Assembly: GCA_021818995.1 (NCBI GenBank)
Contig: JAKASP010000001.1
Location: forward strand, 93,381-157,380
Origin: Microcaldota archaeon
GTDB lineage: Archaea; Micrarchaeota; Micrarchaeia; Micrarchaeales; CABMGC01
Direction: 5' to 3'
DNA: 64,000 nt
Shown here: positions 82 through 53,809 of the stretch, piece by piece
How positions within the stretch are numbered: position 1 is the first letter of the stretch
Layout of the letters: each line of letters begins with the position of its first letter
Made by a program: the position numbers and the translations under genes
The notes under the pieces: model-generated
What the model was told of the DNA's origin: nothing
The model's database searches: none
The model's input: only the letters and a program-made list of their open reading frames with translations

Positions 82-184
82 GTTTCTCTACCGCAATTTA
101 AGTTTTAAAGCTATTCAGTTTGGCATAAAGCTTAGGCAAGCCATTCAATTCGACGCATTCCCACACTTTGTTCTTGAGTGCTCA

Positions 185-407
185 GGCTCGCTTGGGCGAG
201 CCTTCGCTATCTTGCAAGCGCATAGAAGCCCAATCACAGCGAGCACGCCTGCCCAATCGACGCCGAAGGCGTCTTGGGGGGCAGGCGTGCGAGCATTCAC
301 TCTCCATACTGATAGTATGGAGTTTCTCTGCTCGCCTGATTATCAAGTCAACTTCTCCACGCTCCGAGCCCTTCGGGCTCGGCCAGAGGAAAGCGTGGAG
401 CTTGATA
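185..407. repeat. Cluster of perfect and nested palindromes upstream of the integrase
   Basis: The 374 bases between the partial gene and the integrase hold no convincing gene but at least four strong inverted repeats. They are: 185-191/196-202 (7 bp, TTGG loop); 243-254/279-290 (12 bp) enclosing 259-264/268-273 (6 bp, GAA loop); 302-310/314-322 (9 bp, GAT loop); and a nested set 341-347/401-407, 355-363/392-400 and 364-371/375-382, whose tip reads C-TTCG-G, a UUCG tetraloop if transcribed rightwards. The stems are GC-rich in an otherwise AT-rich stretch. Possible roles are recombinase or replication-initiator recognition sites or a structured RNA; the sequence alone does not decide. Confidence 0.75.
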
Positions 408-455
408 GATGATGATATGGTGTTCGAAACGACGCAATCTCAAGAGGTGTCCATT

Positions 456-1271
456 ATGATAAACGAGGACACCAAACTTGATGAGCTTGAGCACGTCAAA
501 AAAGAGTTGCAAGCCCTTCTACCTCTACTTAGCAAATGGAGAGTTGAAGAACTTCAACAGATAATCTCTCACCATTACACGACGAAGTGGAAACACAGAA
601 AGTTTAGGAAATATGGAAGCTTGAGCAAGGCATTCAGCCAAGAGGAACTCGACAAGTTTTTTGCAGTAATCAAAGAAGATCGCTTTAGATTGCTGTATTC
701 CTATCAAGCTTATTGTGGATTGCGAGTAGGCGAAGTTTGTCAGCTCAACGTCAAGGACTTCGATTTTAACATAAGAGAATTGAGAGTAAAGACAGAGAAG
801 GCGCACACACTCGACACTCTGCGAGTGCCCCAATTCCTGTTTGAGCAAACTTTAGAATATATCAGAGAGCACACAATAGAAATCGACAAGGCGCAAGGCT
901 ATTTGTTTTACGTCGATAAGAGGCACAGCCGAACCGACAAGCCATACATAGACTTGAACTACATAAGAAACACATTCCGCTATTACATCTCGCTCGCTGG
1001 CTTGAACGAGGTTTATGATGAGTCAGAGGAGAGCGTGCAGGGCAGGACAAAAAGAAGCCTGCACAGATTGACCACGCACAGCTTGAGGCACTATGCAATA
1101 ACGAAATTCAATCGGGCTGTCGGGGGCGACATTATGCTGACGAAGGCATTCGCTCGGCATAGAGAGATTTCTTCGACGCAAGTTTATGTGCATACATCAA
1201 GAGAGGAGTTATATTCGGCGATTGAACATGCGTTTGCTATAGACAAGCCAATTATGAAGGAGATGGTGTAA
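456..1271 (+). CDS. Tyrosine recombinase/integrase, XerC/D-like
   Basis: 271-residue DNA breakage-rejoining enzyme. The full catalytic set is visible: Arg90 (GLRVGE), a Lys at about 112-115, His208-x-x-Arg211 (HSLRHY), His235 and the nucleophile Tyr244 (TQVYVH). The start was placed at ATG 456 because GAGGTG (444-449) sits 6 bases upstream; the frame stays open further upstream only across the palindromes. The short N-terminal part (about 55 residues before the catalytic fold) is smaller than a usual SAM-like core-binding domain. Its position about 0.8 kb from the 3' end of tRNA-Trp suggests the integrase of an element inserted at that tRNA. A chromosomal XerA acting on a dif-like site is the alternative. 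Confidence 0.88.
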   Translation: MINEDTKLDELEHVKKELQALLPLLSKWRVEELQQIISHHYTTKWKHRKFRKYGSLSKAFSQEELDKFFAVIKEDRFRLLYSYQAYCGLRVGEVCQLNVKDFDFNIRELRVKTEKAHTLDTLRVPQFLFEQTLEYIREHTIEIDKAQGYLFYVDKRHSRTDKPYIDLNYIRNTFRYYISLAGLNEVYDESEESVQGRTKRSLHRLTTHSLRHYAITKFNRAVGGDIMLTKAFARHREISSTQVYVHTSREELYSAIEHAFAIDKPIMKEMV

Positions 1272-2072: not shown

Positions 2073-2191
2073 ACCCAGACATGCAGGTTACGCCCATCAC
2101 TTGGATCAACGCTCCAAATCTAAGTCATCGCCGAAGCTCTAAATTTTCAACATCTGGAGCCTGCCGCGCTGCCAGGTTACGCCACAACCCC
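2055..2191 (-). tRNA. tRNA-Trp (anticodon CCA) with a 65-nt intron
   Basis: The acceptor stem GGGGTTG pairs with CAACCCC (2185-2191 with 2055-2061). The T arm is CTGGG-TTCAAAT-CCCAG and the anticodon stem GCAGG/CCTGC. The anticodon loop reads CTCCAGA after removal of plus positions 2089-2153, which places the intron at the usual 37/38 site. Anticodon CCA is at 2155-2157. The terminal CCA is not encoded, consistent with the CCA-adding enzyme at 41,495. The 3' end faces the integrase-bearing element to the left. RtcB (50,840) would join the exons. Confidence 0.93.
2089..2153 (-). ncRNA. tRNA-Trp intron with box C/D-like guide elements (predicted Cm34 guide)
   Basis: On the minus strand the intron contains GCGATGA (box C-like, plus 2125-2131), TTGA (D'-like, 2106-2109), GTGATGG (C'-like, 2094-2100) and another TTGA near its 5' end (2147-2150). 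The guide next to D' contains TGGAGC, complementary to GCTCCA of the tRNA anticodon loop; the base five positions upstream of D' pairs with C34. Euryarchaeal pre-tRNA-Trp introns are known to guide 2'-O-methylation of C34, so this fits a known arrangement. The boxes are imperfect, the C-to-D' spacing (15 nt) is longer than usual, and a full C/D order appears only if the intron is circular. Confidence 0.6.
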
Positions 2192-50839: not shown

Positions 50840-52279
50840 ATGGACTTTGAAAAGCTGAGCGATGTCAGGTTCAGGCTGAAGAAGGACGAGTCAAAGGGAA
50901 TGCGCACCGGCGTGGTGGTCTACGCAACGGAGAGCATGCTGGAGAAGATAAGGAGCGACAGGACTATCCAGCAAGCGGTCAACGCGACTACGCTGCCTGG
51001 ACTGGTCGGCGACGTGCTCGTGATGCCTGACGGGCACGAGGGCTACGGGTTTCCTGTTGGAGGGGTTGCGGCGTTCGATGCGAACGATGGCATAATCTCT
51101 CCTGGAGCAGTGGGCTACGACATCAACTGCGGGGTCAGGCTGATAAAGACGAATCTCACTGACAAGGAGGTGAGGCCGAAGATAGGCAAACTACTTGACG
51201 CGCTCTTCAAGAACGTGCCGACGGGCGTGGGAAGCAAGCTCAAGACCGGCTTCTCCGAATCTGACCTGAAGAAGATAGCAGAAGAGGGTGCCGGATACGC
51301 GATAGGAAAGGGATTCGGGTGGAACGAGGACGTAGAGAAGATAGAGGAGAACGGAACGATACTGGACGCTGACTTCTCCAAGGTCAGCAAGGAGGCAAAA
51401 TCAAGGGGGCTGGAGCAGTTGGGCACTCTCGGCGCCGGAAACCACTTCCTTGAAGTGCAGAAAGTTGACAGGATTTTTGACGAGCGCATCGCGAAGGAGT
51501 TCGGGCTCAGCAGGAACCAGGTAGTGGTCATGGTCCACTGCGGATCGCGAGGGTTCGGGCACCAGATATGCAGCGACTACCTGCGCATACTGACAGAATA
51601 TCAGGCGAAGAACAACATACAGCTCATCGACCGCGAGCTGAGCTACGCGAAGATCGGTAGCAGGGAAGCGGACAACTATCTCGGAGCGATGAACAGCGCA
51701 GTGAACTACGCGTTCGCGAACAGGCAGATGATAATGCACAACATAAGGAGGAGCTTTGAGGAGACTTTTGGCAAGAGCGCGGAGGAACTTGAGATGCATC
51801 TGCTCTACGACGTGGCGCACAACATAGCGAAGCTGGAGGAGCACACGGTCGAGGGCAGGAGAAGGGCCGTTTACGTGCACAGAAAGGGCGCGACCCGTGC
51901 TTTTCCTAGGAACAGCGAGGGCATACCCAAAGAGTACAAGGGGATAGGCCAACCTGTGATAATACCAGGAAGCATGGGAACCAGCAGCTACATACTCTGC
52001 GGCGAAGAAGGCTCGATGAAGGAGACGTTCGGCACTACGTGTCACGGTTCAGGCAGGCTGATGTCAAGGCACCAAGCGCTGCGCGAGATACCTGCAGAAA
52101 AGACTTTCGAGTCCTTGAAGAGCAAGGGAATAGAGATTCGCGTAAGGACAAGGAAGCTAATCAGTGAGGAGGCAGAATGGGTATACAAGAACGTCGATGA
52201 GGTTGTGGGGGTCGTTGAGAAGGCAGGCATATCGAAAATCGTGTCAAAGAATGTGCCGATGGGAGTAGTGAAGGGCTGA
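50840..52279 (+). CDS. rtcB: RNA 3'-phosphate ligase RtcB
   Basis: 479 residues, single-domain without an intein. MPDGHEGYGFPVGGVAAF, GYDINCGVRL with metal ligand Cys97, GNHFLEVQ, HCGSRGFGHQI, YDVAHN, and the nucleotidylated His402 in HGSGR. It joins tRNA exons (and circularises introns) after splicing, matching the intron of tRNA-Trp here. A TATA-like TTATATTTAAAC precedes it at 50770-50781. Confidence 0.96.
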   Translation: MDFEKLSDVRFRLKKDESKGMRTGVVVYATESMLEKIRSDRTIQQAVNATTLPGLVGDVLVMPDGHEGYGFPVGGVAAFDANDGIISPGAVGYDINCGVRLIKTNLTDKEVRPKIGKLLDALFKNVPTGVGSKLKTGFSESDLKKIAEEGAGYAIGKGFGWNEDVEKIEENGTILDADFSKVSKEAKSRGLEQLGTLGAGNHFLEVQKVDRIFDERIAKEFGLSRNQVVVMVHCGSRGFGHQICSDYLRILTEYQAKNNIQLIDRELSYAKIGSREADNYLGAMNSAVNYAFANRQMIMHNIRRSFEETFGKSAEELEMHLLYDVAHNIAKLEEHTVEGRRRAVYVHRKGATRAFPRNSEGIPKEYKGIGQPVIIPGSMGTSSYILCGEEGSMKETFGTTCHGSGRLMSRHQALREIPAEKTFESLKSKGIEIRVRTRKLISEEAEWVYKNVDEVVGVVEKAGISKIVSKNVPMGVVKG

Positions 52280-53149: not shown

Positions 53150-53809
53150 TCATCTCTTCCTTAGCACCAAGAACAGGTGCATCTTCGTGTACGGCGTTAT
53201 GTCTATCTTCTCGAGCACCTCGAACTCCTGCGCGATCCCCTCAATGAATTCCTTGAATACGCGCTCCGGGCTCTTTGTCACGTCTATGCTCTGCGACTTC
53301 ACGGCGACGTACGCGTAGCCGCCCTGGCTTATCAGCGCGCTGTTCCTCGCGAGTATGTCCGCCTGGTCCGGGGCAGCTATGTCCTGGTAGAGCACGTCGC
53401 AGATCCCGGTGTCGCCAGAGTACGAGTCCACGTCCCGCGCGTCCTTGAGCATCGGAAGCATGTTCGGCCTCGATTCGCACGCCTTGACAAGGTCGCGCAC
53501 GCTCCTTTCCGATATCTCTATGCAGTAGACGATGCCCTGCTTGCCCACTATGTCGCTCACGTGGCTGGCTGTCGTTCCGGTCGCGGCACCGAGGTAGAGC
53601 ACCTTCGACCCCTGCTTTATCTCCATGTGCTTCATGCCCTTCATTATAGCAGCCGCGAGCTTGCTCCTGTACGGGGTCCAGAGCCTGTACTGCTTGCCCT
53701 CGATCTCGACCAGCTCCTCGCCGTACACCCTGTTGCCCTTGACCAGGTTCAGCGTGGCGAGCTTGCTCTCTATCTTGAAAACCCCACCGAAGATCTTCTT
53801 TGCCTCCAT
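53150..53809 (-). CDS. flpA: Fibrillarin, C/D RNP 2'-O-methyltransferase
   Basis: 219 residues. WTPYRSKLAAAIMKG (54-68), SAM site VLYLGAATGTTASHVSDI, catalytic Asp in LYQDIAAPDQ and Lys in YVAVKSQSIDVT. It methylates RNA sites selected by guides like those at 4317 and in the tRNA-Trp intron. Nop5, its usual neighbour, is not adjacent. Confidence 0.96.
   Translation of the reverse strand: MEAKKIFGGVFKIESKLATLNLVKGNRVYGEELVEIEGKQYRLWTPYRSKLAAAIMKGMKHMEIKQGSKVLYLGAATGTTASHVSDIVGKQGIVYCIEISERSVRDLVKACESRPNMLPMLKDARDVDSYSGDTGICDVLYQDIAAPDQADILARNSALISQGGYAYVAVKSQSIDVTKSPERVFKEFIEGIAQEFEVLEKIDITPYTKMHLFLVLRKR

Follow-up and report, generated by a model that had tools for sequence, protein, structure and literature searches.

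In euryarchaea such as Haloferax, the boxes of the guide RNA carried by the tRNA-Trp intron follow the unpermuted order C-D'-C'-D. This intronic box C/D guide, described from Haloferax volcanii and as sR50 of Pyrococcus, directs the formation of Cm34 and Um39 in its own pre-tRNA-Trp (PMC2584109, PMC7994747, PMC7714728, PMC9014305), and the tRNA-Trp guide for positions 34 and 39 has been stated to be always intronic (PMC2584109). The tRNA-Trp intron has been sequenced as a circle from both Haloferax (PMC7714728 Table 3) and Thermococcus kodakarensis (PMC9014305), and hence the novelty that a sequence-only reading of the present locus had attached to such a circle does not hold. Among DPANN archaea, Nanoarchaeum equitans offers further precedents, namely sRNA24, a permuted circular C/D sRNA in which box D lies upstream of box C and only the circle restores the usual order, and the intron of elongator tRNA-Met, which contains C/D boxes and has been described only as a potential guide (PMC3491384). 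Intronic Cm34 guides, circular tRNA-Trp introns and permuted circular C/D sRNAs are therefore already known. What appears new in the Micrarchaeota, as reported here, is a permuted intronic form conserved across the lineage and the substitution of a free-standing dual guide for it.

The window, by which we mean the whole analysed stretch of 64,000 nucleotides, comes from an assembly of 0.48 Mb that is 63% complete. On its minus strand, at 2054-2191, it encodes a pre-tRNA-Trp(CCA) with an intron at 37/38 (Rfam RF00005, 50.2 bits; matched in 56/59 relatives), a gene absent from the ARAGORN listing of the window. Read on that strand, the 5' exon (..GGCUCCAG; 2154-2191) contains the anticodon CCA at 2155-2157, with C34 at 2157, and ends with G37 (2154); it is followed by the intron AUGUUGAAAAUUUAGAGCUUCGGCGAUGACUUAGAUUUGGAGCGUUGAUCCAAGUGAUGGGCGUA and by the 3' exon (ACCUGC..; 2054-2088), which begins with A38 (2088) and has a C at position 39 (2087). 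Stem pairing, with the boundaries at G37 and A38, delimits an intron of 65 nt at 2089-2153 (-), the very interval given by the sequence-only reading. Minimum-free-energy folding of the window pre-tRNA gave a structure that was not significant (z -1.38) and is left out of the argument. Downstream of the tRNA gene lies a phage-type integrase gene (Pfam PF00589; window 168-1271), and an integrated element at the tRNA is possible.

Within the intron, all on the minus strand, the linear order is D (UAGA, 2138-2141), a hairpin (GC-UUCG-GC, 2130-2137), C (AUGACUU, 2122-2128), the guide UUUGGAGC (2111-2118), D' (UUGA, 2106-2109) and, after a short loop, C' (GUGAUGG, 2094-2100). The C-like, D'-like and C'-like boxes and the GCUCCA complement had been recognised from the window alone; the upstream D-like box, left unnamed there, faces box C across the two-pair, UUCG-capped hairpin, such that the two occupy the bulge and tandem G-A positions of a C/D kink-turn with the hairpin as its C-stem. 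The guide is the complement of tRNA-Trp G31-A38 and is contained in the 12 nt between box C and the D' UUGA; counting back from D' by the N+5 rule leads to G2114, opposite C34 (2157), the nucleotide first proposed as the target. Against the archaeal consensus, RUGAUGA for C and CUGA for D, these two boxes are degenerate in this copy, yet UGA in C and GA in D, which supply the sheared G-A pairs, are preserved. The first seven intron nucleotides (2147-2153; AUGUUUA/AUAUUUA in most introns of the order) are well conserved, and beyond the second of them (i2) belong to neither guide nor box; the AUGUUUA motif was considered as a C box and rejected, the bases of the G-A pairs being absent from it. 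When the window intron is shuffled 20,000 times, an 8-nt complement (Watson-Crick or G-U) of GCUCCAGA turns up in 339 of the shuffles, and the window copy by itself is thus only suggestive. Homologous introns were therefore collected.

BLAST matches were obtained in 56 of 59 relatives, some spanning only part of the gene, and an exon pattern was matched in 141 of the 164 genomes of the micrarchaeal order, yielding 121 distinct introns of 59-85 nt; where no tRNA-Trp was recovered, genomes of the order gave only other tRNAs (except G047) and were counted as incomplete rather than as losses. The introns were aligned by anchoring them on the anticodon complement, which none failed to have: a Watson-Crick complement to U33-A36 is present in 121/121, with the first intron nucleotide (i1) paired in 119 and i2, including G-U, in 116. 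A box C of the form RUGANNN precedes the N+5 site by exactly 12 nt in 117/121 introns and in none at adjacent offsets, a fixed-position test that replaces an earlier count in which the last RUGA was taken as box C and which gave a mixed 9/12-nt result. The degeneracy of the boxes, which the sequence-only reading had emphasised, is real in the window copy but local to it, for across the order box C is mostly AUGAUGA (53) or AUGAUUA (39; together 92/121), and the D-like box is NUGA in 113/117 introns. The stem closing the D box covaries: its third pair varies among introns between C-G, G-C, A-U, U-A, G-U and U-G, and its second changes from C-G to G-C and U-A. As a control, the partner was slid, and pairing at positions one and two dropped in almost all cases.

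The introns fall into two types, type A (n=36), the window's type, in which the guide is extended to GGAGC, and type B (n=85), with the guide CUGGAA. NUGA is found at N+5 in 27/36 type-A introns (shuffle mean 1.0) and 17/85 of type B (mean 1.7), and the relaxed NNGA in 31/36 (mean 2.6) and 43/85 (mean 4.9), respectively; D' thus lacks GA in 42/85 type-B introns and is eroded in about half of them. With one vote per sequence cluster, the NNGA peak at N+5 amounts to 9.7 of 15 clusters, with at most 1.6 at other positions, and the D'/C' loop measures 3-5 nt in 58 of the 74 introns carrying NNGA. Shared ancestry and uneven sampling affect the cross-genome tests; the pattern over the 121 homologous introns is far beyond chance. 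A guide for position 39 was also sought in the order's introns, including across the junction of a putative ring, and was rejected, as no more than 4/6 pairs form at N+5. The introns of L041, L042, L045 and L084 bear an extra hairpin directly after the 5' splice site (e.g., CAGGTTTGCAAACGTAAACCTG), accompanied in L041 by an altered guide base opposite i2.

The proteins of such a system are at hand. The window encodes fibrillarin, the 2'-O-methyltransferase of C/D RNPs (53150-53809 (-); Pfam PF01269, E 6.6e-77), whose relatives, 59-74% identical to it, carry the label Candidatus Micrarchaeota or, in one case, Marsarchaeota, and also the RtcB RNA ligase of exon joining and intron circularisation (50840-52279 (+); Pfam PF01139, E 2.2e-168), correctly named in the sequence-only reading. 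Fibrillarin, Nop5, L7Ae and RtcB are all present in genome G000, and the genomes of the relatives have fibrillarin in 57/59, Nop5 in 56/59, RtcB in 55/59 and L7Ae-family proteins in 29/30. The RtcB of L318 (G001 C3:439300-442200) and of eight other relatives, unlike that of the window, is interrupted within the conserved GYDINCGVR motif by some 500 in-frame aa, starting with CLHPGTRVY and ending with HNFIANGIVVSNC, which by its look is an intein.

Elsewhere in the class, many tRNA-Trp introns measure 12-38 nt and lack the guide. A search pattern combining box C, guide and box D recovered TGATGA-N4-CTGGAGC-N-CTGA in many such genomes: with one mismatch allowed, 39 of the 137 genomes that belong to the class but not to the order have a free-standing guide whose boxes are canonical and whose 12-nt spacing and N+5 geometry are those of the intron, close matches at the same threshold occur in 0/164 genomes of the order, and a reversed-pattern control gave no match. 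By the strict pattern, 98 genomes outside the order have neither form of the guide, partly because their tRNA-Trp was not read. This counterpart, not visible to the sequence-only reading, is found only where the tRNA-Trp intron read is guide-less, and in none of the genomes read do the two forms occur together.

The linear order of the free-standing sRNA is C - g39 - D' - C' - g34 - D, where g39 and g34 are guides to positions 39 and 34. The second, upstream guide, (G/A)CAGGU followed by 3 nt and CUGA with N+5 on C39, was seen in 12 of the 26 matches examined; in nine of ten examples it forms all six pairs with positions 38-43, ACAGGU going with CCUGU tRNAs and GCAGGU with CCUGC tRNAs. In G253 the sRNA begins about 30 nt after tRNA-Trp, and in six further genomes it lies within about 3 kb of it. 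Several copies of the free-standing C34 guide per genome are present in G183, G193, G220 and G296, while in L242-L246 (genus g72) the 5' nucleotides of the guide mismatch the intron and the second guide is not for position 39. The sRNA nucleotide opposite i1, with the pairs entered by hand from the search output, gives G-C in 11 cases, A-U in 4, U-A in 4 and a mismatch in 8 (n=27). None of 20,000 permutations reaches these 19/27 pairings, and with one genome per genus 12/15 are paired, a level attained in 30/20,000. Because the guide covaries with an intron nucleotide, the substrate of the sRNA would be the unspliced pre-tRNA-Trp, the guide substrate described for other archaea (PMC2584109).

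The order-wide complement, the 12-nt spacing, the D' box at N+5, the covariation, the proteins and the alternation with a free-standing guide constitute the comparison on which our case rests. On this sequence evidence, we consider it highly probable that the micrarchaeal pre-tRNA-Trp intron is a single-guide box C/D RNA for the 2'-O-methylation of C34, and the proposal of the sequence-only reading that the intron guides the modification of its own tRNA is to that extent borne out, the methylation itself being predicted. In the RNP that we infer, L7Ae would bind both the kink-turn formed by D, hairpin and C and the k-loop formed by D' and C', with Nop5 and fibrillarin joining it; the 12-nt segment from C to D' would pair with the anticodon loop of the unspliced pre-tRNA-Trp, comprising exon nucleotides together with i1 and i2, and fibrillarin would methylate the nucleotide opposite N+5, i.e., C34. 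This pairing would most likely take place in trans and before splicing, the guide being supplied by another pre-tRNA or an excised intron, after which EndA and RtcB would splice the exons and might circularise the intron. The boxes are indeed permuted, as first noted, but a circle is not needed for the C34 unit: D, C, guide, D' and C' are contiguous in the linear intron, and circularisation would close only the unused second guide strand, from C' to D.

The guide has to be reconciled with splicing. In archaeal tRNA introns, pairing with the anticodon loop is part of the bulge-helix-bulge, and relaxed motifs are tolerated by ARMAN-type endonucleases (PMC4033280, PMC12397907); the anticodon complement might on these grounds be a splicing structure unrelated to methylation. 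However, the helix of the bulge-helix-bulge is formed by a different element, namely the last six intron nucleotides (GAAGUA, GGCGUU and variants), which pair with C32-C35 at 3/4 positions in 121/121 introns (in the window, the 3' strand of this central helix is 2091-2094 (-)) and leave 3-nt bulges at both splice sites, placed for cuts after G37 and before A38. The mismatch and the weak outer helix of this motif fit the relaxed motifs of the ARMAN endonuclease, and the guide complement was rejected as the bulge-helix-bulge. Moreover, guide pairing would bury the 5' splice site, and splicing accounts neither for the constant 12-nt distance of box C and the D' box at N+5 nor for the location of the same guide outside the tRNA in sister families. 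We hence regard a role in splicing alone as very improbable. The two pairings nevertheless compete for the same exon bases, and the guide would therefore act in trans, or else before the bulge-helix-bulge forms. This competition, together with the coverage of i1 and i2, by which pairing requires unspliced RNA, and the argument from other archaea that methylation precedes splicing (PMC2584109), lends some appeal to a device operating mainly in cis, whereby the guide keeps the 5' splice site covered as long as C34 is unmethylated and only methylated pre-tRNA is spliced. Against it, methylation of the Haloferax pre-tRNA-Trp is guided in trans according to reviews (PMC7994747, PMC11408192), removal of the intron there has no effect on growth (PMC7714728), and the free-standing guides of the sister families necessarily act in trans; we hold such a timing device to be rather unlikely.

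It could also be argued that an ancestral guide worked and that the introns seen today are decaying relics, whose degenerate boxes no longer support methylation. The off-consensus C and D boxes of the window, the disappearance of the position-39 guide from the entire order and the type-B introns without GA in D' all point in this direction. Yet the guide itself is intact in every one of the 121 introns, the window copy retains the G-A pair bases and a D' UUGA at exactly N+5, and no genome of the order has a close free-standing substitute. Decay is thus improbable, a little more so than the timing device, and a functional single guide for C34 remains our preferred reading.

The intronic guide is also found in families f5, f7, f9, f15 and f25. 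In f7, f25 and some members of f15, the introns read g39 - D - hairpin - C - g34 - D' - C', and all g39 pairs form (6/6) in the five introns checked from these other families; some f5 and f15 introns have only g34 - D - hairpin - C. Eleven families include genomes carrying the guide as a separate gene, while others have it in the intron. Taking the box order of the free-standing micrarchaeal sRNAs as reference, the g39-bearing introns read as the sRNA circularly permuted, the box C that comes first in the sRNA standing at their 3' end, and closing them into a ring would restore the box order of the sRNA; by the same comparison, the introns of the order are of this permuted type with g39 lost. 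One possible, quite tentative scenario is that an ancestral dual guide moved repeatedly between a gene and the intron of its target via circular RNA, leaving permuted introns behind, and that in the order the ring, by now without its position-39 half, is the working guide. The moves between free gene and intron may have run in either direction.

In relation to the systems described before, the order's intron shares with the euryarchaeal guide the same tRNA, the 37/38 intron, the selection of C34 by N+5, a target that includes intron nucleotides and the same core proteins. It differs in length (65 nt in the window versus 103 nt) and in having only the position-34 guide. Further, compared with the euryarchaeal box order, its D-C-D'-C' arrangement has both D-C pairs closed by loops, so that it is the second guide strand, and not the terminal stem, that the tRNA body interrupts. 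The location of D upstream of C recalls sRNA24 of Nanoarchaeum; unlike that RNA, which is not in a tRNA intron, the permutation is conserved throughout the order and no circle is needed to make the guide unit contiguous. The tRNA-Met intron of Nanoarchaeum is comparable as a DPANN tRNA intron with C/D boxes, in a different tRNA. A further counterpart is the free-standing micrarchaeal sRNA, with the same C34 guide, 12-nt spacing and N+5 geometry, in contrast to which it is a part of its target, permuted and devoid of the position-39 guide that the sRNA, a separate gene of standard box order, usually has as well. As judged from these genomes, the Micrarchaeota break the rule that the tRNA-Trp guide is always intronic.

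A small RNA guide can therefore reside either inside or outside the RNA that it modifies, and the Micrarchaeota present a natural experiment on the retention of a guide within an intron and on its action in cis versus in trans. The permuted box order offers a direct test of C/D RNP assembly on a permuted RNA, and the alternation between intron and gene bears on how circular RNA might carry a guide into and out of genes.
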